Under the pieces are notes generated by a model that saw only the letters and a program-made list of their open reading frames with translations, made no database searches and was not told the DNA's origin. Positions 876 through 12,968 of a stretch of DNA of 34,327 nucleotides are shown piece after piece; the stretch's first letter is position 1; every line of letters begins with the position of its first letter. Where the stretch lies: the NCBI GenBank assembly GCA_947626635.1, contig CANQSY010000010.1:1-34327 (forward strand), in the 5' to 3' direction. A program made the position numbers and the translations under genes. The DNA comes from an uncultured Akkermansia sp. GTDB taxonomy: Bacteria > Verrucomicrobiota > Verrucomicrobiia > Verrucomicrobiales > Akkermansiaceae.

Positions 876-920
876 TTTTCCTTTCTCGCCTCCATAAGCC
901 TGAAAAAAGATAACTCAGAC

Positions 921-957
921 AGAGTCTGCCACGGATATTCCGCGGCAGGCTCTTTTT
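921..957 (+). terminator. Rho-independent terminator of aquaporin gene
   Basis: A hairpin arm at 921-934 pairs with 940-953 around a 5-nt ATATT loop. The stem holds CTGCC/GGCAG, CGG/CCG and AGAG/CTCT blocks with one mismatch and one G-U pair, and a T run to 957 follows. It ends two bases before the next promoter. Confidence 0.8.
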
Positions 958-959
958 AC

Positions 960-988
960 TTGCGCCGTACCGGGTTAGAAGGTATAAT
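960..988 (+). promoter_or_regulatory. Promoter of the seven-gene efflux/Sel1 unit, leaderless layout
   Basis: TTGCGC (960-965), a 17-bp spacer, then a perfect TATAAT (983-988). Seven bases separate the -10 from the ATG at 996, so the predicted +1 falls on or beside the start codon. Confidence 0.65.
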
Positions 989-995
989 GAGAGCC

Positions 996-1568
996 ATGGA
1001 GTGGAACGACCAATTCATGCAGATTTTCACCGCTGCGGTGTACCGTTTCCACGAACAGCGACAAGGAAGCGCCGAGCAGTTTTTCCTTCCCGGCGAGCAG
1101 GCTTTTCTGTCGACTTTTGGGTACACAAACCAGGAAATGTATGATTATGTGGAGGATTACGCGACTCTCGGCGACCCCACGCCTTCGACGATTCTGCTGA
1201 TCGCCGCCGCGCGCAGGGCATTTTTCCTGACAAATCAGCGGGGAATCATGGGAGGAGCCGTGCTGCTCAAGGAGACAGACATTCCGCGGGAGAGCGATGA
1301 ATTTCAAGACATAGCGTATTTACCACGAATCATACGCAAGGCGGAGGCGAAGTTGCACGGCACGCTGCCGCGTAGCCTCATGTTCTACTGTGCGAAGGAT
1401 CGTGCATTTTTGCGGGCTCATGGTGAAATACCTCCGGCGGATTTTCTTTATGCCGTTTGGACGGCGCATGGCGATCGGCAAAAGGTCGTTTCCTACGTGC
1501 TGCGGATGATGAAGGAGGTAGCGACGGCTAGTGGTCAACCCTCGATGAATGAAGAACTTAAGGCATGA
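996..1568 (+). CDS. DUF5069-like protein
   Basis: Protein of about 190 aa, unknown function, no signal peptide or membrane segment, so probably cytosolic. The C-terminal half (LPRIIRKAEAKLHGTL, then FYCAKDRAFL and DFLYAVW) resembles DUF5069 proteins of Verrucomicrobia and Planctomycetes; this is a remembered resemblance, not a search result. The N-terminal part (GYTNQEMYDYVEDYA) seems characteristic of the Akkermansia-type members. I chose the ATG at 996 because it sits 7 nt after a perfect TATAAT. Longer starts (TTG 960, ATG 987) lie inside the promoter. It is the first gene of the unit running to 12968 and overlaps the next gene by 4 nt. Confidence 0.6.
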   Translation: MEWNDQFMQIFTAAVYRFHEQRQGSAEQFFLPGEQAFLSTFGYTNQEMYDYVEDYATLGDPTPSTILLIAAARRAFFLTNQRGIMGGAVLLKETDIPRESDEFQDIAYLPRIIRKAEAKLHGTLPRSLMFYCAKDRAFLRAHGEIPPADFLYAVWTAHGDRQKVVSYVLRMMKEVATASGQPSMNEELKA

Positions 1569-2077
1569 ATGATTCGGCAGCCAAACAAGTAAACGGGGGG
1601 GGGAAAATCTCGGAAAGCGATGAGGAGAACACATCAGCTTTCGAAGTTCTGGATGCACAACGCAAGGCGCTGGAGGAGATGTCCGATGCCCTCGTGGCAA
1701 AACTGTTTGTCATGGTGAAGGAGCAGGATGAGCGTGCGAGAGAATTTGCTGAGCGCACCCATTCACTCTCCTCTCTGCCGCAGGAAATTCGCGAACAAGG
1801 GGGAAAAGTTGTCGTTGCCGCGCCGACCGACGTGAAGAAAATTGACGGCGGGGAAAAGGTACGGACAGCTGAGGTAAAGGCGGCCCGAAAGGTACAAGTG
1901 CCGCTCCCGGTGACTCGACGTTTTGAGACTCCACCTGATGAGGTAGCCTATCATCCTGTCCGCCAGGAGCCGAGTACCGAAAGGACTCAGGAAAAAAACA
2001 GCAATGAAATTACCTCCGGCAAATTGCTTGTGTTCCTCTGCATCCTCTTCGTTATCATCCTTCGAGCCTGTACCTAG
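1565..2077 (+). CDS. Tail-anchored coiled-coil protein, unknown function
   Basis: Protein of 170 aa that I do not recognise. The N-terminus is polar, with Gly11-13 encoded by a G9 tract. Residues about 25-65 form a charged, helix-prone stretch likely to be a coiled coil. The middle is rich in Lys, Val and Pro and looks disordered. The last 20 residues hold a single hydrophobic segment (LLVFLCILFVIIL), so the protein is predicted to be tail-anchored in the inner membrane with its bulk in the cytoplasm. The ATG overlaps the upstream stop (ATGA), implying translational coupling, and the adaptor gene starts 11 nt downstream. Co-location with the pump suggests an accessory role. Function is unknown. 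Confidence 0.7.
   Translation: MNDSAAKQVNGGGKISESDEENTSAFEVLDAQRKALEEMSDALVAKLFVMVKEQDERAREFAERTHSLSSLPQEIREQGGKVVVAAPTDVKKIDGGEKVRTAEVKAARKVQVPLPVTRRFETPPDEVAYHPVRQEPSTERTQEKNSNEITSGKLLVFLCILFVIILRACT
1595..1603 (+). repeat. G9 homopolymer inside CDS
   Basis: Nine consecutive G bases encode Gly11-Gly13 of the next listed gene, about 30 nt after its start. Such tracts are prone to slippage and also to sequencing error. Confidence 0.85.
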
Positions 2078-2088
2078 CAGAATTTGCC

Positions 2089-5000
2089 ATGAAAGAACAA
2101 GTAATACAACGACACAGAAACAGCGGACAACGGATCATTGGCGCGCTCGTATGTGTGCTGGCGCTCGCGGCGTCAAGCTGCAAAGAGGGAACCAAGGAAG
2201 CCGTGAAATCCGACCCGCCTCAGGTTCGTACCTTTCACATGTTGCAGCAAACCGTCACAGACAAGGGTGAATGGTTTGGCTACTTGCGCGGGAAAAAAGA
2301 CACGGATATTCATCCGCACGTCACGGGCTTTCTCCTCTCGCAGGAGGCTCCCAATGGCAGTTCGGTGAAGGAGGGGGATATCCTCTTCCGCATCGACCCC
2401 TCCGTTTTTGAGGCCGAACTCGCCGTTGCGCAAGCCAATCTTCAGGCCGCTCAGGCCAATGTGACTTCTGCTCAGGCTGCATGCGAGCAGACACAGATGG
2501 ACGTGGACCGCTATACCCAGCTTGTAAACAATGGCGCTGTTTCCGAAAAAGAGCTCACGGATGCGCAGCAGCGCCTGCGCGCAGCCAGAGCTGCCGTGGA
2601 TGCCGCTCACGCCGCCGCTGAGCAGAATGCAGCTGCCGTTCAGAAGGCCCAAATCAATTTGGACTACACCATTATTCGAGCCCCCTACGATGGTATCATG
2701 AGCACGGCGGAGGTATCGCAGGGAGACCTTGTGAGTCCTGCCACCAAGCTCGCTAATATCACATCCGTTGACCCAATTCGCTTTGATTTTTCCATCAACA
2801 GCGACAATATGATTGATGCCTTCCGAAAGTACGGCGATATTACCGTTCGGGAGAAGACGCAACTACCGCCGCCTCCTCCGGTAGACATTGTGCTGGAGGA
2901 TGGCAGCACCTTCCCGCAGAAGGGGAAACTGACGGCGATGGAGAGCAAGGTGAGTGAATCAGGGCTGATCAACGTGACCGGGGAGGTGTCCAACCCGGAA
3001 CACGTGTTGCGCGGCGGTATGCCGGTACGTTTGCGTATTCCTCTTTTACAGAAGGAAGCGCTGCTCGTGCCGAAACAATCTATCCGCAGTGTGCTCAGGA
3101 ATGACTTTATCATTGTCGTGGATCCGAAGAATGAACCGCACATGGTGCCCGTGGTGAACGAGGGTCTGTACAGCATACCCGTGCGTGAGGAGGACGGTTA
3201 CACATCCACACAGGAAATGGTTGCTGTCACCGGCCTACATGGCAATCTTGCGCAGATTGTTAAGCAGTTCGGTTACGAGAAACCCTCAGATGCTCTCGTG
3301 GTGGCCGACGAGCAGAATTCTGTCTTCGCTGCCAATATATCCTCCGCCAACAGTCGCATCAAAGACGGCGACCCAACCCCCCGCGGCACGATTGATCCCC
3401 AACCTTTCTCCTACAAGCCACAGATGCTCCCGGCTGTCGCCGCCGCTGCATCCGGACAGGAGCAACCGGCCGAAAACCCGAATGCCAAGGCCAGCATGCC
3501 TCCCATGCCTGTGAAGGTGCGACCTTTGTTGCGGCAGGATGTGGATGTGCCGGACGAGTGGTTCGGTACACTGCGCGGCGTGGAGGAGACCGATATACGG
3601 CCACAGGTGAGCGGTTTTGTCCTCAAACAGCACTTTCGTGATGGAGCTATCGTGAAAAAGGGAGATGTGCTTTTTACCATTGACCCATCGCTCTTCCAGG
3701 CAGAAGTGACCGAGGCTCAAGCAAATCTCCTGATGGCCAAGGCTTCCGTTGAGCAAGCTCAAGCCCAGCTGGACCGTGCCCGCCAAGATTACGAGCGATA
3801 TGCCAAGCTCAATGCCGGTACTCCGGGAGCTATTTCCGATAAGACGCTCACCGATGCCAGCAGCGCCATTAAAACCCAGGAAGCTGCCTTGTTGAAGGCT
3901 CAAGCGAGCGTCGCGCAAATGGAAGCGGCCCTCCGCCTGGCCCAAATCAATTTAGACTACACCGTCATCCGCGCCCCATTTGATGGTCGCGTCGGCATCC
4001 ACAAGCCATCCGTAGGCGCACTTGTGTCGCCATCCGATCCTGAGCCGCTTGTCACCCTCTCCTCCGTGAATCCGATGCGGGTCGATTTCCAGGTGAGTGG
4101 AAAAGGGGCTTTGCAGGGAATCACGGCGTACGAGGCGAAGGGGAATCGACAGGGCGGGGATTCGATGCCCGGGTTCAATGTCATTCTTGAAGACGACAGC
4201 GTGTATCCGGAGCAAGGACACGTCGTCTCCGCTGATAATTCAGTGAATCGCACGACAGGCACCCTCAAGGTCGTCGGGTATGTCGAAAACTCGGACGGAG
4301 GCTTGCGCAGCGGAATGCCTGTGCGTGTGAGGGCCGGACTGAATTCCCGGAAGGGGGCCTACCTCGTGCCGGCACGGGCGCCGATGAATGCGAAAGGGCG
4401 AGACATTCTCGTGTTGGTTCGTCCCGACGGTGCGCCGCAGATGCTGCCCATTGAACGAGGGGCTCTGGTCAACCTCTCGATTGCGGATGAGGAAGGAAAG
4501 CCCGGCGTCCTCCAACCCATGCAGATCGTGGATGTCGACCGTGGGATTGTGACAGCGATGATTCTCGCGAAGAGCAAGGCTCCCAGCTTGGAAGCTGTCG
4601 TACTGGAGGGATCGCAGGTGAAAGATTGGAAGGAGTTGCTGTTGAAGAAATCCGGGGCGAAAGATGCTCGGGAACTGCTTGTCAAGATGAATGGGGGAAA
4701 GAACCTGCCGGATGATATGCCGCAGAAAGCGGGCGTTGAGGATTGGGACGCGCTGTTGTTGCGTCAAAGCGGCGCCACGGATTACCGAGGTCTCGTCCTC
4801 AAGCAGGCAGGAGCCGGAGATGAGCTGGATCTCATTGCGAGCAGGCAGGGGTACGCCTCCGTGATGGAGATGACGCTCAAAGGGCTAGGCTTTGATGATA
4901 TGGCGAACGTACCGGTTGTGGTGGAAGGCTCGTTGATGGCAGCTCAGGTCTACGCCGCCAACGAAAAGGTCGGCGCGCATGTAAACAAACTCAAACCGAC

Positions 5001-5130
5001 GCCCTATCACTACCGAACGACTCGGACCGTGGTGGAATCAGTGACGGCTGACGGCAACGGAGGCAGCTCCTCCCCCAACCTGCCGGTCGATCAACACGGC
5101 GCATCGCCCCAACCCTCTGCAAACAACTAA
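2089..5130 (+). CDS. Fused double RND periplasmic adaptor (two AcrA/MexA units in one chain)
   Basis: A 1013-aa lipoprotein-like adaptor, more than twice the normal 370-400 aa. A hydrophobic N-terminus ends in LAASSC, so Cys31 is the probable lipidation site. Copy 1 spans about residues 45-370 and copy 2 about 477-805 plus a C-terminal return strand. Each copy has a lipoyl half (DIHPHVTGF and DIRPQVSGF), an Ala/Gln-rich helical hairpin, the second lipoyl half (both share AQINLDYT then IRAP and DG), and a beta-barrel part (GGMPVR and SGMPVR). A Pro-rich linker joins them near residues 420-475. Copy 2 also has a helical repeat insert near residues 805-940. The pump gene follows 27 nt later. The normal role is to link an RND pump to an outer-membrane channel. 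The start has no SD. Confidence 0.9.
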   Translation: MKEQVIQRHRNSGQRIIGALVCVLALAASSCKEGTKEAVKSDPPQVRTFHMLQQTVTDKGEWFGYLRGKKDTDIHPHVTGFLLSQEAPNGSSVKEGDILFRIDPSVFEAELAVAQANLQAAQANVTSAQAACEQTQMDVDRYTQLVNNGAVSEKELTDAQQRLRAARAAVDAAHAAAEQNAAAVQKAQINLDYTIIRAPYDGIMSTAEVSQGDLVSPATKLANITSVDPIRFDFSINSDNMIDAFRKYGDITVREKTQLPPPPPVDIVLEDGSTFPQKGKLTAMESKVSESGLINVTGEVSNPEHVLRGGMPVRLRIPLLQKEALLVPKQSIRSVLRNDFIIVVDPKNEPHMVPVVNEGLYSIPVREEDGYTSTQEMVAVTGLHGNLAQIVKQFGYEKPSDALVVADEQNSVFAANISSANSRIKDGDPTPRGTIDPQPFSYKPQMLPAVAAAASGQEQPAENPNAKASMPPMPVKVRPLLRQDVDVPDEWFGTLRGVEETDIRPQVSGFVLKQHFRDGAIVKKGDVLFTIDPSLFQAEVTEAQANLLMAKASVEQAQAQLDRARQDYERYAKLNAGTPGAISDKTLTDASSAIKTQEAALLKAQASVAQMEAALRLAQINLDYTVIRAPFDGRVGIHKPSVGALVSPSDPEPLVTLSSVNPMRVDFQVSGKGALQGITAYEAKGNRQGGDSMPGFNVILEDDSVYPEQGHVVSADNSVNRTTGTLKVVGYVENSDGGLRSGMPVRVRAGLNSRKGAYLVPARAPMNAKGRDILVLVRPDGAPQMLPIERGALVNLSIADEEGKPGVLQPMQIVDVDRGIVTAMILAKSKAPSLEAVVLEGSQVKDWKELLLKKSGAKDARELLVKMNGGKNLPDDMPQKAGVEDWDALLLRQSGATDYRGLVLKQAGAGDELDLIASRQGYASVMEMTLKGLGFDDMANVPVVVEGSLMAAQVYAANEKVGAHVNKLKPTPYHYRTTRTVVESVTADGNGGSSSPNLPVDQHGASPQPSANN

Positions 5131-5157
5131 CTTCAGACTTCCAGCTTATTTCCAGTT

Positions 5158-8100
5158 ATGTCTCCATTCTTTATCAAACATCCCATTATTGCTGCGGTCA
5201 TAGCGATCGTTACGACCCTGCTTGGAATCATCAGCATGGTCGGCTTGCCCATCTCGCAGTACCCGGATATCGCCCCGGTCACGATCAATTTGAGTGCGAC
5301 TTACCCGGGCGCGAATGCGCAGGAGGTAGCCGATTCCGTCGCGACTCCCATCGAACTGCAGCTCTCCGGTATCGAGGGAATGGACTACATGAATTCCACT
5401 TCCTCCAACAACGGCACATGCAGCATCAATGTCGTCTTTGAACCGGGCACAGACGCCAATACGGACCAGCAGCTCACGTACATGAGATACAGTCAGGCTA
5501 CCTCACAGCTGCCTGCCACTGTCGCCCAGATGGGGGTCACCATCAAGCAGTCCTCGGGCCTGCCGCTTATCATGTACGCTATCGACTCGCCGCAGGGCTT
5601 CTTTAACCCCATCGACCTGACGGGATACGCCTACATCAACATGGTGGATCCCATCAAACGCATAAAGGGCGTCGGCGATGTGATGGTGTTCGGCGGTCGT
5701 TACGCTGTGCGTATCTGGCTGGATAGTGAAAAAATGGCTCAGAAGGGCATTTCGGTGCAAGAGGTGTACAATGCCGTCAATTCTCAGAACACGATTAATC
5801 CCGGCGGCGCGGTGGGTGCGGAGCCCATGCCGGACGGGCAGGAGTTTACCTATACCATCCGCAACAAGGGGCGCATGGAGTCCGTTGAAGAGTTTGAGGA
5901 TATTATCGTGCATCAGGAGGGCACGCAAGCGGTGCACCTGCGCGATATCGCACGCATTGAACTCGGATCACAAAGTTACTCTCTAGCCGGGCGCGTGAAC
6001 AGTCAACCCGCCACGGCTATCGCCATCTACCAATCGGCGGACGCGAACGCATTGGAAACAGCCGAGCGCCTGCGTAAGTTATTTGCTGAGAAGGAGAAAG
6101 TGATGCCGGAGGGGATGCGAGGGTTTGTCGCGTTGGATACGACGACCCCGGTGACAGATTCGATCAACGAGATCATTCACACCCTCTTTGAGGCTCTTGT
6201 TCTGGTAGCCATTGTGGTGTTTATTTTCCTGCAGGGGTGGCGTGCAACATTGATTCCGCTCATAGCCGTGCCTGTTTCACTGGTGACGACCTTCTGCTTT
6301 TTCCCCATCCTCGGTTTTTCTCTCAACACGATCTGCTTGCTGGGCATGGTGCTAGCCATAGGTCTCGTTGTTGATGACGCCATTGTCGTTGTGGAAGCCG
6401 TGGAGGCGCACATGGAGAGAGGAATGAGTGCGAGACAGGCCACTTTTGCGGCTATGAAGGAGGTGAGTGGACCTGTGGTGGCCATCGCGCTTGTGCTGGC
6501 AGCCGTTTTCCTGCCTTCGGTCCTGCTTCCGGGCATCACGGGCACGCTTTTTCAGCAGTTCGCCGTGACAATCGCCGTGTCCATGTTGATATCAGCCTTC
6601 AACGCGTTGACCTTGTCGCCTGCGCTATCAGCGTTGCTGCTCAAGCCTAAATCAGAAGAAAGATCTCTTCTCACACCGCTCTACAATCTCTTCAACACAG
6701 GATACGAAAAATTATCCGCAGCTTTCTCACGAGTTTGCGGATGGATGTGTCGACACCTCATTATTTCCATTCCCCTCCTTGCGGCGCTCGCCGTGTGTAT
6801 TTGGCCCGTTTCCCGACAGGTTCCCGGCGGGTTCCTGCCGGATGAGGACCAGGGATTCCTTCTCTGCGGCGTTATCATGAAGCCCGGTGTCTCGCTCCAG
6901 CGTTTGACTGAGCAAACCGTTGCCGTCGAGAACGCTCTGTCCAGCGACCCCGCCACGGAAAACGTTATTTCCATCATCGGCATGAACATCATCATCAATG
7001 TGCAGACGACAAACGCGATGACGTATTTCGTCAAACTGAAAGACTTTGACAAGCGCCCGACGATGGAGAACGGCAAAAAGCCTACCGCTCTGGATATCCA
7101 GCGTCGCCTCACTACGGCTCTCATGACATGCGGCGCAGATGGCATTACCTTCGTCACCAGTCCGCCGGCTATCCCCGGTGTAGGTACAGGCAACGGCATT
7201 TCCGTCGTTTTGGAAGATATGGAAGGACAGGGGGTGCAGGCTCTCTATGAGCAGGCTCAACGTTATGAGGAAGCCCTGCGCAAGTACCCCGCTATTGCTG
7301 CGGCGTCGGACATGATGCTCCCTCAAGTGCCGCAAAAGAGCATTGCCATCGATAAAGACAAGTGCCTCGCACAGGGAGTGGATTACTCGGCGGCGAACGC
7401 ACTGCTGCAGTGCTTCAACGGTTCTCAGTTTGTGAACTACTTCACCAAATTTGGACAGCAGTGGCAGGTTTATCTTCAGGCAGCCGGAGCCAGTCGAGTG
7501 AACACGGACCAAATCGCCAACTTCTACGTGCGTAACAGCGCCGGCGAGTCGGTACCCCTCAGTACACTCGTCACGATTAAGGATATAGCCGATACGGAAT
7601 TCGTCTTCCACATGAATAATTACAACGCAGCGCGTATCAACGTGACTCCTGCTGCGGGGTACTCCACTGCGCAGGCGATGGCGGCTGTGGAAGCCTGCTT
7701 CAACGATACGATGGATACGACGAAATTCGCCATCGACTATATTGATATGAGCTTCCAGGAGAAGAAGGTGCAGGAAGGGCTGGGACTGGGATCCATCTTT
7801 GCGTTATCGGCTCTCTTTGCCTTCCTCATTATGGCGGCTTTGTATGAAAAATGGACATTGCCTCTGGCCATCTTCTTATCCGTGCCTGTGGCAGTATTGG
7901 GAGCATTTTTCGGATTGTGGATGTACAAGGTGGAGCTCAATCTTTACGCACAGATCGGGTTGGTGATGCTAGTGGGGCTAGCAGCCAAGAATGCCATCCT
8001 CATTGTGGAATACGCCGTGCTGCAGATGGAGCGAGGGCTCACATTGCTGGATGCTGCGGTGACGGCGGCACGACTGCGGTTGAGACCTATCCTGATGACA

Positions 8101-8346
8101 TCATTTGCATTTATCCTGGGTTGTGTGCCGCTGCTGGTGGCTGAAGGTGCGGGAGCTTTGGCTCGTAACGCCATTGGGGTTGTGGTCGTGATTGGTATGA
8201 CGATAGCGACGGGGCTGGGCGTATTCTTCATTCCTTGCTCCTTCGTATTTATTATGCGACTCTTCCGCAGCAGGGTGGAGAAACCTCAACGCGGAGAGGA
8301 TCCGGATGAAGTTTACGCGTATTCCCAGTTGGAAAAAGAGGCTTAA
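5158..8346 (+). CDS. RND multidrug efflux transporter (HAE-1 family, AcrB/MexB-like)
   Basis: Inner-membrane proton-driven pump subunit of 1062 aa, full length for the HAE-1 family (AcrB is about 1049). The N-terminus MSPFFIKHPIIAAVIAIV is the classical first membrane helix. The proton-relay aspartates appear as GLVVDDAIVVVE (Asp406, Asp407) in TM4, and the relay lysine as GLAAKNAILIVE (Lys944) in TM10. Large periplasmic loops follow TM1 and TM7 as expected. It lies directly downstream of the doubled adaptor, so the two should form a complex, but no TolC-type channel gene is in the window. The substrate cannot be read from the sequence; drugs, bile acids or detergents are typical of the family. 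Confidence 0.95.
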   Translation: MSPFFIKHPIIAAVIAIVTTLLGIISMVGLPISQYPDIAPVTINLSATYPGANAQEVADSVATPIELQLSGIEGMDYMNSTSSNNGTCSINVVFEPGTDANTDQQLTYMRYSQATSQLPATVAQMGVTIKQSSGLPLIMYAIDSPQGFFNPIDLTGYAYINMVDPIKRIKGVGDVMVFGGRYAVRIWLDSEKMAQKGISVQEVYNAVNSQNTINPGGAVGAEPMPDGQEFTYTIRNKGRMESVEEFEDIIVHQEGTQAVHLRDIARIELGSQSYSLAGRVNSQPATAIAIYQSADANALETAERLRKLFAEKEKVMPEGMRGFVALDTTTPVTDSINEIIHTLFEALVLVAIVVFIFLQGWRATLIPLIAVPVSLVTTFCFFPILGFSLNTICLLGMVLAIGLVVDDAIVVVEAVEAHMERGMSARQATFAAMKEVSGPVVAIALVLAAVFLPSVLLPGITGTLFQQFAVTIAVSMLISAFNALTLSPALSALLLKPKSEERSLLTPLYNLFNTGYEKLSAAFSRVCGWMCRHLIISIPLLAALAVCIWPVSRQVPGGFLPDEDQGFLLCGVIMKPGVSLQRLTEQTVAVENALSSDPATENVISIIGMNIIINVQTTNAMTYFVKLKDFDKRPTMENGKKPTALDIQRRLTTALMTCGADGITFVTSPPAIPGVGTGNGISVVLEDMEGQGVQALYEQAQRYEEALRKYPAIAAASDMMLPQVPQKSIAIDKDKCLAQGVDYSAANALLQCFNGSQFVNYFTKFGQQWQVYLQAAGASRVNTDQIANFYVRNSAGESVPLSTLVTIKDIADTEFVFHMNNYNAARINVTPAAGYSTAQAMAAVEACFNDTMDTTKFAIDYIDMSFQEKKVQEGLGLGSIFALSALFAFLIMAALYEKWTLPLAIFLSVPVAVLGAFFGLWMYKVELNLYAQIGLVMLVGLAAKNAILIVEYAVLQMERGLTLLDAAVTAARLRLRPILMTSFAFILGCVPLLVAEGAGALARNAIGVVVVIGMTIATGLGVFFIPCSFVFIMRLFRSRVEKPQRGEDPDEVYAYSQLEKEA

Positions 8347-8365
8347 CTTCTTGCTCCTTGATCCC

Positions 8366-10255
8366 ATGACCAAGCAGACGTCCAAGAGAGATGATGCGAG
8401 GCGGCACGTCGGGAAACTTCCCTTGGTGCTCGGCTCCTCGGCGTTTCTTCTCGTCCTCGGCGGCGTCGCGGTATACCTCTCCTGCGGCGCTCCCTCCCTC
8501 GAAAAATGGGAGCATCTCGTGCAGGACGGGGAAAAAGAGCGAGCAGAGGCAATGCTCCGGGAATTGGCGGAGCAGGGAGATGCTCGAGCGCAGACCGAAC
8601 TCGGTCGGCATTACGCAGAAGGCAGGGGTGAACCGAAAGATGGGGAGAAGGCCGCGAAACTCTTCCTCAAGGCTGCGCAGTATGGATATGCTCCTGCGCA
8701 GCTTGCTCTTGCGAAATGTTACGAAAACGGTGAAGGCGTGCTTCCCGGTAACCGAGAATCGGCCAAGTGGTATCGAATAGCCGCTGAGTCCGGAGATCCC
8801 ACGGCTATGGCGAACCTTAGTCGTTTTTACCGGCTTGGTCGAGGGTTGGAGGCAAATCCTGCGGAGGCTTTTCGCTACGCGAAGATGTCAGCTGATGCCG
8901 GCAATGCCGAGGGCTGTCGCCAGTTGGGTCTTTGCTACGCAGAGGGTGTGGGAACGGAAAGGAACGCGCAGGAAGCTCTGCGGCTTTTCAGCGTTGCCGC
9001 TGCCAGCGGTGATCCCGTCGCTCAGAATACCTATGGTTGGCATTTATGTTGCGGCCAGCTCGGTGCGCGCGATGACGACCAGGCCATGCGATTTTTTGAG
9101 CTTGCGGCCGAGCAAGGCTTCACCACCGCCATGTTGAATCTCGGTTGGATGTACGAATTGGGGCGAGGTGTTGAGCAAGACCAGGAAAAAGCCTTGCAGC
9201 TCTACCGCCAAGCAGCGGATCTCGGTAACCCCATAGGGCAAAACAATGTCGGGCTATGCTACAAGTGCGGCAGGGGCGTGGAGAAGAACTTAGAGGAGGC
9301 TTTTCGCTATTTCCGGCTGTCCGCGGACCAAGGATGCTTGAGCGGTTTATATAATCTGGGAATCTCCTACCTGTCCGGACAAGGAGTGAGTTGTGATACC
9401 GCAGAGGGAATCTCACTCATTCGCCAAGCTGCCGAGCAGGGTTACGCCAATGCGTTGAATTTTCTCGCCATTTGTTTTGAAGAGGGCATAGGGGTTGAAA
9501 AGGATCCGAACCTTGCTGTCAAGTATTACAGACGGGCCATAGAGGCCGGTCATCTTGACGCCGCTCTCCAGATGGCCGCGCGCTACAAAAATGGAAGGGG
9601 AGTTGAAAAAAATCCGGAAGAAGCAGCCCGTATGATACGGGATTTCGCCGAACGTGGATTCGAACGCGCTCAATTTACCCTCGGTATCTATTACAGCGAT
9701 GGTATCGGCGTCAAAAAGGATCCGGAGCAAGCGGTCCACTGGTTCGCATTGGCGGCAGAAAATAATCATCTGGCCGCAGTCAACCGTCTTGCAGATGCTT
9801 ACCGGAGCGGCGAAGGAGTGCAGCAGGACGATGTACAGGCCGCTCGTCTCTACCGAAAAGCCGCCGAGGAAGGCGATGCGTATGCGCAGTACCGTTTTGC
9901 GGTATGCTGCCGTGACGGCAAAGGTGTGCCGCAGGATCAGCAAGAAGCCCTCAAATGGTATCGTAGGGCTGCCATTCAGGAGCATGCTGAAGCCCAACTC
10001 AGTTACGGCAGATGCCTTGAGCGGGGTGAGGGAATGGAACCCAATCCCAAGCAGGCCTTGATCTGGTACCGTCGCGCCGCCTGCAATGGTAACTCTGAAG
10101 CAAAAGACGAGGTGAAGCGATTGCGTGAGAGCCTCATCAAGCAGGGGGTCGATCTTGATGAGGAAGAAGAGGAGGAGAGGAAGGAAGCCGTCGAGGACGA
10201 AGAAGGGAAAGCTCAGGAGGACGATGACAAAAGTCATGAAGAGAATCTCTCATAA
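8366..10255 (+). CDS. Membrane-anchored Sel1-repeat protein A with acidic tail
   Basis: About 629 aa. A single hydrophobic segment (about residues 18-40) is followed by roughly 15 Sel1-like repeats of 36 residues (pattern A..YR.AA..G...AQ..LG..Y..G.GV..D) and an acidic tail rich in Glu/Asp. Sel1 repeats are TPR-like helical pairs that act as protein-binding scaffolds. With an N-terminal anchor and no other membrane segment, the repeats are probably periplasmic. LSC near residue 40 might instead be a weak lipobox. I chose ATG 8366 over the 8306 ATG, which would overlap the pump gene, because 8366 aligns with the start of the downstream paralogue. The gap to the pump is 19 nt and to protein B 5 nt. 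The partner is unknown. Confidence 0.88.
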   Translation: MTKQTSKRDDARRHVGKLPLVLGSSAFLLVLGGVAVYLSCGAPSLEKWEHLVQDGEKERAEAMLRELAEQGDARAQTELGRHYAEGRGEPKDGEKAAKLFLKAAQYGYAPAQLALAKCYENGEGVLPGNRESAKWYRIAAESGDPTAMANLSRFYRLGRGLEANPAEAFRYAKMSADAGNAEGCRQLGLCYAEGVGTERNAQEALRLFSVAAASGDPVAQNTYGWHLCCGQLGARDDDQAMRFFELAAEQGFTTAMLNLGWMYELGRGVEQDQEKALQLYRQAADLGNPIGQNNVGLCYKCGRGVEKNLEEAFRYFRLSADQGCLSGLYNLGISYLSGQGVSCDTAEGISLIRQAAEQGYANALNFLAICFEEGIGVEKDPNLAVKYYRRAIEAGHLDAALQMAARYKNGRGVEKNPEEAARMIRDFAERGFERAQFTLGIYYSDGIGVKKDPEQAVHWFALAAENNHLAAVNRLADAYRSGEGVQQDDVQAARLYRKAAEEGDAYAQYRFAVCCRDGKGVPQDQQEALKWYRRAAIQEHAEAQLSYGRCLERGEGMEPNPKQALIWYRRAACNGNSEAKDEVKRLRESLIKQGVDLDEEEEEERKEAVEDEEGKAQEDDDKSHEENLS

Positions 10256-10260
10256 ATACC

Positions 10261-12159
10261 ATGGACAGCACGAAAGAACAAACAGCGACGCATGAGCCAT
10301 CTCACATGTCCCGCAAGAGAAGGCTCCTTCTCATCGTTTCTCTCTCAGCGGTTTTTCTCGTACTTGCGGGCGGGGGAGTACTCGCTTACGATTATCTGAC
10401 GCGACCCTCATTTGAGAAGAGAGAGAAACTCCTCCGGGAAGGGAAATATGAAGAAGCACAACAGATGTTGGTTGAACTGGCGGAGCGCGGCGATGCCCGT
10501 GCCCAGACTGAGCTGGCATGCCAATACCGTGACGGAAAGGTTGTGCCCAAGGATGAAGAGAAAGCGGCGCGACTTTTCCTCAGCGCTGCGCAGAATCATT
10601 ACATTCCTGCTCAGGTTGAGCTCGCTCGGTGCTACGAGGACGGCAAGGGAGTGCTGCCTGACAATCGGGTGGCGGCTCGTTGGTATCGGCAGGCTGCTGA
10701 CGCGGGCGATCCTGAAGCCAAGGCCAATCTCAGTCGTTTTTACCGATTCGGACGGGGGCTTGATGAAAATCCGGCGGAGGCTTTCCGTCTCGCAAAAGAG
10801 TCGGCGGATGCCGGTCATTCGACCGGTCTGCGTCAGCTTGCCTACTGCTACGAGCGAGGAACAGGAACGGAGAAGAACCCTGAGCTGGCGCTGGATCTGC
10901 TCCGCCGCTCAGCTGAAATGGGTGACAACATCTCACAGAATTCCTACGGCTGGTACCTCACCAACGGTATTCTCGGTGAGCGCGATGATGAGTCGGCCCG
11001 GCACTACTTTGAACTCGCTGCGCAGCAAGGAAATGCCACCGCTTTGGTGAACTTGGCGTGGATGTACGCTCGAGGACGAGGTGTTGACGTGGATGAGGAT
11101 AAGGCGCTGAGCTACTACAAACAAGCCGCCGATCTCGGCGAGCTTAGGGGAATGAGTAACGTCGGCATATGCTACAAAGAGGGCAGGGGCGTAGCGAAAA
11201 ACATGGAGGAGGCCGTACGCTGGTTCCGTATGGCTGCTGATCGGGGGGACGATTTCGGTCTGCTTCTGCTCGGTAAATGTTATCTATTCGGTGAGGGTTT
11301 GGAAATGGATCAAATCGAAGGCGTTGCCCTCATTCGCCGAGCTGCCGAGATGGGGTATCTCCCGGCGACGTATGAACTTGCTCTCTGCTATAAGTATGGT
11401 AGGGGAGTGCGCAGAGATGTTGACAAGGCGATGGATCTGCTGCGTGAGGCGATGGAGAAGGGAGATGAGAAGTCGACGATGCACCTGGCTCGCATGTACA
11501 GGCATGGTGATGGCGTCAAAAAGGATCCGGTTGAATATGCACGGATATTGAGTCGTGCTGCCAATGCAGGAAACGCAGCGGCGCAATTCCTCATGGGGGT
11601 TTGTTACTCTCATGGCGAGGGAGTTGAGAAAAATAACGAAGAAGCGGTGAAGTGGTACCGTCGGGCGGCTGACCAAGGTTACAACTATGCGATCAACAAC
11701 CTCGCTGTTGCCTACCAGCTCGGTGAGGGCGTTGAGCGCGACGAGCAGGAGGCCGCCAACCTGTACCGAATTTCCGCGGAACGGGACAACGATGCGGCCC
11801 AATTAAACTTAGCGATGTGCTATGAGAGAGGGAGTGGGGTGAAGAAAGATATTGTCGAGGCAGCCAAATGGTATCGAAAGGCTGCCATTCAGGGCAACAC
11901 CAAGGCCCAATTCTACTACGGCCTGTGCAACGAATTCGGCAGGGGCGTGGATCAAAACCTCGATGAAGCGCTCTCCTGGTACCGCCGAGCTGCAGCAAAA
12001 GACTATGCCGCAGCTCAAACCCAAGCGCGTAACCTCGAAAAACGTATCAAATTGATCAGGGCAATTGAATCCGGAGCCGACAATGTTGAAGATGAGGATG
12101 ATGGCGAGGACGAGGGAGATGACGACGACGAGGATGAGGATGATGAAGAGGGAGAATGA
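10261..12159 (+). CDS. Membrane-anchored Sel1-repeat protein B with acidic tail (paralogue of A)
   Basis: A 632-aa protein that is collinear with its upstream neighbour: a short polar N-terminus, one membrane segment (about residues 22-44, LLLIVSLSAVFLVLAGGG), about 15 Sel1 repeats, then a tail of almost pure Asp/Glu. Blocks match protein A position for position, for example AERGDARAQTEL against AEQGDARAQTEL and LSRFYRFGRGL against LSRFYRLGRGL. A tandem gene duplication followed by divergence explains the pair. The start is 5 nt after gene A and the stop overlaps the next start (ATGA). The acidic tail could bind cations or a basic partner; this is inference. No enzymatic motif is visible. Confidence 0.9.
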   Translation: MDSTKEQTATHEPSHMSRKRRLLLIVSLSAVFLVLAGGGVLAYDYLTRPSFEKREKLLREGKYEEAQQMLVELAERGDARAQTELACQYRDGKVVPKDEEKAARLFLSAAQNHYIPAQVELARCYEDGKGVLPDNRVAARWYRQAADAGDPEAKANLSRFYRFGRGLDENPAEAFRLAKESADAGHSTGLRQLAYCYERGTGTEKNPELALDLLRRSAEMGDNISQNSYGWYLTNGILGERDDESARHYFELAAQQGNATALVNLAWMYARGRGVDVDEDKALSYYKQAADLGELRGMSNVGICYKEGRGVAKNMEEAVRWFRMAADRGDDFGLLLLGKCYLFGEGLEMDQIEGVALIRRAAEMGYLPATYELALCYKYGRGVRRDVDKAMDLLREAMEKGDEKSTMHLARMYRHGDGVKKDPVEYARILSRAANAGNAAAQFLMGVCYSHGEGVEKNNEEAVKWYRRAADQGYNYAINNLAVAYQLGEGVERDEQEAANLYRISAERDNDAAQLNLAMCYERGSGVKKDIVEAAKWYRKAAIQGNTKAQFYYGLCNEFGRGVDQNLDEALSWYRRAAAKDYAAAQTQARNLEKRIKLIRAIESGADNVEDEDDGEDEGDDDDEDEDDEEGE

Positions 12160-12968
12160 TTAGGATGCGCGGCTTCATCAGACAGAAGATTTCACGCTGG
12201 GGGACTGTGCTGGGTGCATGGCTCATACTCATGGGTGGTCTTGCTTGTGCAGCCGACTTCAATGCCTGCATTCTGAAGGCTTGCTCCGATATGCCGCGCG
12301 GTGGAGGATATGCGGCTGATCGTGCAGCGGAAGTGAGATTGGCTCGTTCGGGAGTCATCCCGGATCGAAACGGATGCTCTCTTCAAGGGTGTCCCTCTGC
12401 TGCTTCGCCTACTTTTTGTTCTGCGGCGTGTTACCTTGTTCTTTTGCGCGCTCTTCAGTATTGGGAAAGGCAAGAAGAGAGGAAGGTTTTCTCTGCGGAG
12501 GTATGGCAGGCTTTGCGTGTGGACGAGAGGCACCCGGATGGTTATTTGAGTTGGGGACGTTTCAATGCCAATGGTCCCGGATGCGCTAAGTGGGTACATG
12601 ACTTGGGCGCAGGCATCTCCTTCACTTCACCCGCTTTAGCGAAACCCGGAGATTTTCTCAAGATCTTTTTCTCCTCTGCTGCGGGGGCTACCGAACGTGG
12701 GCACTTCGTTGTCTTCCTCGGCATCCAGCAGATAAACAGTACGCCTTTCATCGTTTATTGGTCGGCCAACCGTCGGACGTCCGGATATGGAGTTGTAAGA
12801 ATTGCCCTGAATGACAAACGGATCCGTTTCTTGCTTTTTACCCGCATCACTCGTCCGGAGAACATAGCGCGAGCCCCGCAGTTGCCGCTGACGGATCCCT
12901 GGCTTGCTTCCATGCTCTCGCGCACATACAGTTTCCGCGAGATGATTCAAGGATGCGGGCTGCGCTGA
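12156..12968 (+). CDS. Exported NlpC/P60- or CHAP-like cysteine hydrolase candidate
   Basis: A 270-aa protein with a probable N-terminal signal (GTVLGAWLILMGGLACAADF). The mature part has a Cys-rich stretch (FCSAACYLVLL), then an AKPGDFLKIFF block and GHFVVFLGI. This order of Cys-helix, PGD turn and His strand resembles NlpC/P60 and CHAP cell-wall hydrolases, in which Cys and His are catalytic. I infer peptidoglycan hydrolase or amidase-like activity but the match is weak and no family is certain. The ATG overlaps the stop of Sel1 protein B by 4 nt; a second ATG lies at 12165. It is the last gene of the unit that starts at 960. Convergent rsmI ends 113 nt away, and no clear terminator lies between them. 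Confidence 0.6.
   Translation: MIRMRGFIRQKISRWGTVLGAWLILMGGLACAADFNACILKACSDMPRGGGYAADRAAEVRLARSGVIPDRNGCSLQGCPSAASPTFCSAACYLVLLRALQYWERQEERKVFSAEVWQALRVDERHPDGYLSWGRFNANGPGCAKWVHDLGAGISFTSPALAKPGDFLKIFFSSAAGATERGHFVVFLGIQQINSTPFIVYWSANRRTSGYGVVRIALNDKRIRFLLFTRITRPENIARAPQLPLTDPWLASMLSRTYSFREMIQGCGLR

Follow-up and report, generated by a model that had tools for sequence, protein, structure and literature searches.

A conserved RND pump with an asymmetric fused double adaptor and its changing gene neighbours in uncultured Akkermansia

Gene organization and transcription signals

The window analysed here is a stretch of 34,327 nucleotides, namely contig C10 of a 155-contig metagenome-bin assembly of an uncultured Akkermansia sp. 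with a genome of 2.16 Mb. Its close relatives are also uncultured Akkermansia bins, coming from samples labelled Lapin (rabbit) and, in one case, from roe deer rectum. Seven co-directional open reading frames, named g1 to g7 here, are present at positions 960–12968, as a preliminary description of the locus had proposed. They encode a DUF5069-like protein, a tail-anchored protein, a fused double periplasmic adaptor, a permease of the RND family, two Sel1-repeat proteins and an NlpC/P60-like protein.

The transcription signals ahead of the first gene are well defined. The intrinsic terminator of an upstream aquaporin-like gene (about 915–960, plus strand) folds with −24.4 kcal/mol (z −6.7) and is followed by a T-run, and just 3' of it lies a conserved promoter (960–988, plus strand) with a CTTGC-type −35 element at about 960–966 and the TATAAT −10 element at 983–988 that had been noticed at the outset. 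The same layout is found in 18 orthologous upstream regions, in which CTTGC is followed, after about 17 nt, by TATAAT or TATACT and, 6–9 nt (mostly 7) further on, by an ATG. This promoter is absent from the output of a sigma-70 scan, its −35 element being too weak for the filter of the scan, and it was recognised by conservation instead. Translation of g1 had been assigned to a TTG at 960, which was not borne out. The start is placed at the ATG at 996, 7 nt behind the −10 element, because the ATG that follows the promoter opens the protein with MEWN or MEWD in every ortholog (MEWND in the window). So little space between promoter and start codon probably makes the g1 mRNA leaderless. The closeness of promoter and start is a deeply conserved arrangement in Akkermansia. 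Inside the unit, 14 terminator-like sites were counted against 10.5 expected from shuffled sequences, so that there is no excess, in agreement with the initial view that internal terminators are lacking.

The first two genes form a pair of their own. The g1 product (996–1568, plus strand) is a cytoplasmic protein of 190 aa for which the DUF5069 label holds as a weak resemblance (E 0.027 by itself, and weak matches in 9 of 12 orthologs, best E 0.0019), its 15 bits lying below the Pfam cut-off of 27. It occurs as a single copy across the order, with one match each in 38 of 39 genomes, and has no pump context in genomes without this pump. The g2 product (1565–2077, plus strand) has one C-terminal membrane helix by hydropathy, as expected of the tail-anchored protein it had been taken for, and its orthologs share the N-terminal motif QRxALEEMS...MVxEQExR. 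In most g2 proteins a conserved Cys, one residue short of the C-terminus, comes after the terminal membrane helix. The two genes stay paired even where g1 sits away from the pump, as is the case in three genomes (G001, G003 and G019).

The permease and its fused double adaptor

The identification of g4 (5158–8346, plus strand, 1062 aa) as an RND pump is well founded. It is an HAE-1 RND permease that matches ACR_tran (PF00873) with E=1e-277 and 924 bits, and it scores 966.6 bits against TIGR00915, for which the curated cut-off is 940. The proton relay of these permeases depends on two Asp in TM4, a Lys in TM10 and an Arg in TM11 (PMC8277102), and all of these residues are present in g4, within the motifs GLVVDDAIVVVE, GLAAKNAILIVE and RLRPILMTS that were picked out by visual inspection of its sequence. 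At first 18 relatives, and later more, allowed the order g1-g2-g3-g4, or g3-g4, to be read. Wherever both g3 and g4 are readable, namely in the window and in about 24 relatives, the two genes lie side by side. There is no gene for an outer-membrane channel in the operon, and the TolC-type genes of the genome are found only on contigs C45, C16 and C42; a channel supplied in trans is suggested by this lack of a channel gene. On C45 of the same genome, a related single-adaptor pump is accompanied by its own channel, and in a species with a closer single-adaptor pump the channel gene also lies downstream of that pump.

The adaptor gene g3 (2089–5130, plus strand, 1013 aa) holds two complete adaptor modules, as had been claimed, with TIGR01730 matched twice (345 bits over two stretches, cut-off 94.9). 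A lipoprotein-like N-terminus is followed by the N-half adaptor (about 40–430), a linker, the C-half adaptor (about 470–815) and a C-terminal insert (818–932). In 23 aligned genomes g3 is a single open frame of about 920–1013 aa, in which Cys31 of the lipoprotein-like start is invariant. The two halves are 39% identical to each other and match AcrA/MexA/MexC-type adaptors by sequence profile. An AlphaFold2 (AF2) model (mean pLDDT 80.8) predicts alpha-hairpins at residues 105–192 and 534–623 and beta domains in each half, and it matches AcrA, MexA and MacA in Foldseek; being a model of the single chain without permease or channel (pTM 0.64), it is uncertain in its linker and in the relative position of the two halves. 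The insert in the C half (window 4540–4884) is built of short helices and shows a W-LLL-SGA-like pattern that repeats. Opposite the double-adaptor gene, long open frames of 1018 and 1326 aa run at L037:6911-9967 (plus) and L050:2889-6869 (minus), which are probably a by-product of codon bias.

The origin of the fusion was approached with a maximum-likelihood tree of 79 adaptor modules, of which TriA and TriB are not part. All N halves of g3 form one clade (100/100) and all C halves another (100/99), and both group with single-module adaptors of Akkermansia (96/92), the single adaptors from the rest of the order falling outside. Since each half is a single clade and both are joined by the single adaptors of this genus, g3 most likely stems from one old duplication and fusion of adaptors of Akkermansia's own type, as far as the tree can tell. 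No g3-like fused adaptor was found outside the genus at E 1e-45 in 289 genomes, with two candidates scored per genome, and among the TIGR01730 matches listed for 59 genomes, the frames with two adaptor matches are confined to this genus.

The two halves differ at the hairpin tip, where adaptors dock to TolC through the RLS motif RxxxLxxxxxxS (PMC3391258). The N half carries it as R141, L145 and S152. An exact motif is found in 18 of 23 N halves, the remaining five having an insertion or deletion, in 27 of 29 single adaptors, and in 2 of 23 C halves; because the sequences are related, these counts characterise a single lineage and cannot be taken as independent observations. At the tip of the C half there are two extra residues ahead of the Ser position, and both Leu and Ser are variable. 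Judged from the alignment, the C half of g3 has lost the RLS tip motif, and it could bind TolC via its longer tip (PGAxS).

A second fused double adaptor (L077, 719 aa; L106 in G020), again with two TIGR01730 matches, is encoded at G000:C73:3472-5628 on the minus strand and adjoins another HAE-1 RND permease. Adaptors of this type are fused in long open frames in 20 of 24 relatives of the same genus. The exceptions are three larger-genome species (G004, G015 and G017), in which one module of about 380 aa stands alone, and G013, with one adaptor match in a frame of 537 aa. The RLS motif is present in all four L077-type halves examined. In the tree these halves lie far from those of g3, a distance that makes an independent origin of the two fusions likely, though the branches are long.

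Sel1 pair and NlpC/P60-like protein

Downstream of the permease, g5 (8366–10255, plus strand, 14 repeats) and g6 (10261–12159, plus strand) are the two membrane-anchored Sel1 paralogues that had been described, with 13–14 repeats and one N-terminal membrane helix each. The g6 gene is a tandem duplicate of g5, 53% identical to it, and the start of g5 is most likely at 8366 rather than 8306. The pair is absent from between g4 and g7 in all seven relatives with a readable g4-g7 junction, even beside an RND protein 94% identical to g4. From this comparison of gene order, the pair is seen as a recent insertion private to this genome or species. An ORF of 70–75 aa between g4 and g7 at L118 and L119 was considered as a Sel1 remnant and discarded, its similarity to Sel1 having an E of 0.16 or worse.

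The last gene, g7 (12156–12968, plus strand), encodes an exported protein without a curated family in Pfam or NCBIfam. The residues Cys88 and His183 do not vary among 20 sequences; the NlpC/P60 Pfam model matches none of the 20 family members, and no sequence relative was found in the PDB. Its AF2 model (mean pLDDT 88.6) gave no significant match in Foldseek alone (best E 0.04). In VIA-align, the best match was the N-acetylmuramoyl-L-alanine amidase 4q68 (Z 10.7, 3.4 Å, 159 residues), after which numerous NlpC/P60 and CHAP chains followed. These alignments together with the two invariant residues support the NlpC/P60-like assignment of the preliminary description, and the model points to a papain-like NlpC/P60 fold with candidate catalytic Cys and His.

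The gene lies directly 3' of g4 in G020, G016 (where the frame is broken), G008, G014, G043 and two further bins; in the remaining genomes, which are the majority, its homologs are away from the pump. The link of g7 with the pump is thus a feature of one Akkermansia subclade. Elsewhere, a g7 homolog adjoins a 1237-aa protein that contains a caspase (Peptidase_C14) domain (L105:6776-11428, G016:C9), and in G004 the neighbour is a 1083-aa protein without a Pfam match.

Proposed mechanism and alternatives

We think that g3 and g4 quite probably constitute a TriABC-like tripartite efflux pump, made of an HAE-1 RND permease and a fused asymmetric double adaptor, with the channel provided in trans; the efflux function is what we infer for the pair. 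The g4 protein would act as the proton-driven permease trimer, and three g3 chains may fill all six adaptor positions around it. The N half would use its intact RLS tip to dock to a TolC-type channel, and the C half, with its altered tip, might mainly touch or activate the permease or fill the second channel groove, like the TriA/TriB pair. One of the TolC/NodT proteins encoded elsewhere would serve as the channel. As for the other genes, g1-g2 would be an older neighbouring pair that uses the same promoter as the pump, g7 would have joined it in one subclade, and the Sel1 pair would have been inserted in this species only.

Some RND pumps serve physiological export. Instead of drugs, the pump of g3 and g4 might export an envelope component, namely a lipid, a glycan or a piece of peptidoglycan, and in the subclade that has g7 beside the pump, g7 might trim wall material that has been exported or released. 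The stable position of g7 beside g4 in that subclade fits with this idea, and so do its best structural matches, which are peptidoglycan amidases and NlpC/P60 peptidases. However, g4 groups with the drug-type HAE-1 permeases, no biosynthetic genes are linked to the pump, and g7 is elsewhere in most genomes, so that we consider such a role unlikely.

Much less can be said for the seven genes as one envelope complex, with the Sel1 proteins as a scaffold of the pump and g7 as a remodeller of the surrounding wall. The tight spacing and overlaps of the genes, the N-terminal membrane or signal segments on the Sel1 proteins and g7, and the NlpC/P60-like fold of a protein that stays behind the pump in a subclade would all agree with it. 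Against it, the Sel1 pair is missing at the same place in the seven relatives mentioned above, the genome has numerous other Sel1 candidates (38 at first look), g7 homologs are mostly away from the pump and g1-g2 are separable from it. As a general system the complex is largely refuted, and even for this species we regard it as very unlikely. The synteny in relatives rules out a conserved seven-gene system, and because the Sel1 pair is absent there, and g7 and g1-g2 can be separated, the unit is a composite. What stands of the preliminary description are the seven ORFs, the promoter, the domains, the conserved doubled-adaptor RND pump and the fold of g7; its larger proposal of a new export and wall-remodelling machine of seven genes fails, the Sel1 genes and, outside one subclade, g7 being apart from the pump. 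Least probable of all is that the Sel1 pair came between g4 and g7 by an assembly error of the metagenome bin, which would suit a 155-contig assembly and an arrangement seen in no other genome examined, but would hardly leave a 4-nt overlap of g6 and g7, short gaps elsewhere, intact frames and a GC of g5-g6 (0.55–0.56) like that of the neighbours, in a genome where Sel1 genes are abundant.

In our opinion, the pump of g3 and g4 belongs to an ordinary family and is unusual in its adaptor, which is fused, asymmetric and conserved; the additional genes are neighbours of the pump. More tentatively, with the odds in our judgement somewhat against it, covalently paired adaptors may have evolved twice independently in Akkermansia, one of the pairs with divided labour, which would amount to a naturally occurring pump with an obligate 3:3:3 composition and six adaptor domains. 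Whether adaptors work as dimers whose members have unequal jobs is a long-running question in the research on RND pumps, and an adaptor pair in one chain with unlike tips makes both the stoichiometry and the division of labour directly testable. In addition, two pumps of a medically interesting gut genus are hereby marked as unusual.

Comparison with known systems

The closest parallel is TriABC-OpmH of Pseudomonas aeruginosa, which, like g3-g4, pairs a single HAE-1-type RND permease with adaptors of two kinds and has its channel encoded elsewhere. TriA and TriB are 36% identical and both are required (PMC4338810), and their roles are non-equivalent (PMC13328181); the notion that RND pumps normally work with a single adaptor was thus too strong (PMC4338810, PMC13328181). 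The identity between the halves of g3 (39%) is comparable to that of TriA and TriB. These two are separate genes, whereas in g3 a single polypeptide carries both adaptors; its origin is separate as far as the tests within Akkermansia reach, and its C half is without the canonical RLS tip, unlike in TriABC-OpmH. In sequence, g3 matches weakly (E 4e-11) 6vej, a solved two-adaptor chain resembling TriAB.

DSY0927 of Desulfitobacterium hafniense is, like g3, a naturally fused chain of two adaptor modules that differ from each other (PMC4338810, PMC4446572). This protein is part of an ABC-type transporter in a Gram-positive bacterium and its N half has no coiled coil, whereas g3 has hairpins in both halves, an RND permease as partner and a Gram-negative host. 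No description of a natural fused adaptor of a Gram-negative RND pump was found in the limited open-access literature consulted, and g3-g4 is apparently a variant of a known pump that has not yet been described.

AcrAB-TolC and MexAB-OprM share with g3-g4 the adaptor fold of each half and the permease family, and a trimer of adaptor dimers is expected in all of them. They use one type of adaptor from a single-module gene, and the tandem-fused AcrA, which is functional (PMC4446572), is engineered and not natural. Within Akkermansia itself, the L077 adaptor resembles g3 in having two modules in one chain and an HAE-1 RND permease as neighbour. It occurs in most of the genomes that have g3, and differs from g3 in being shorter, distant in the tree and equipped with RLS in both halves.
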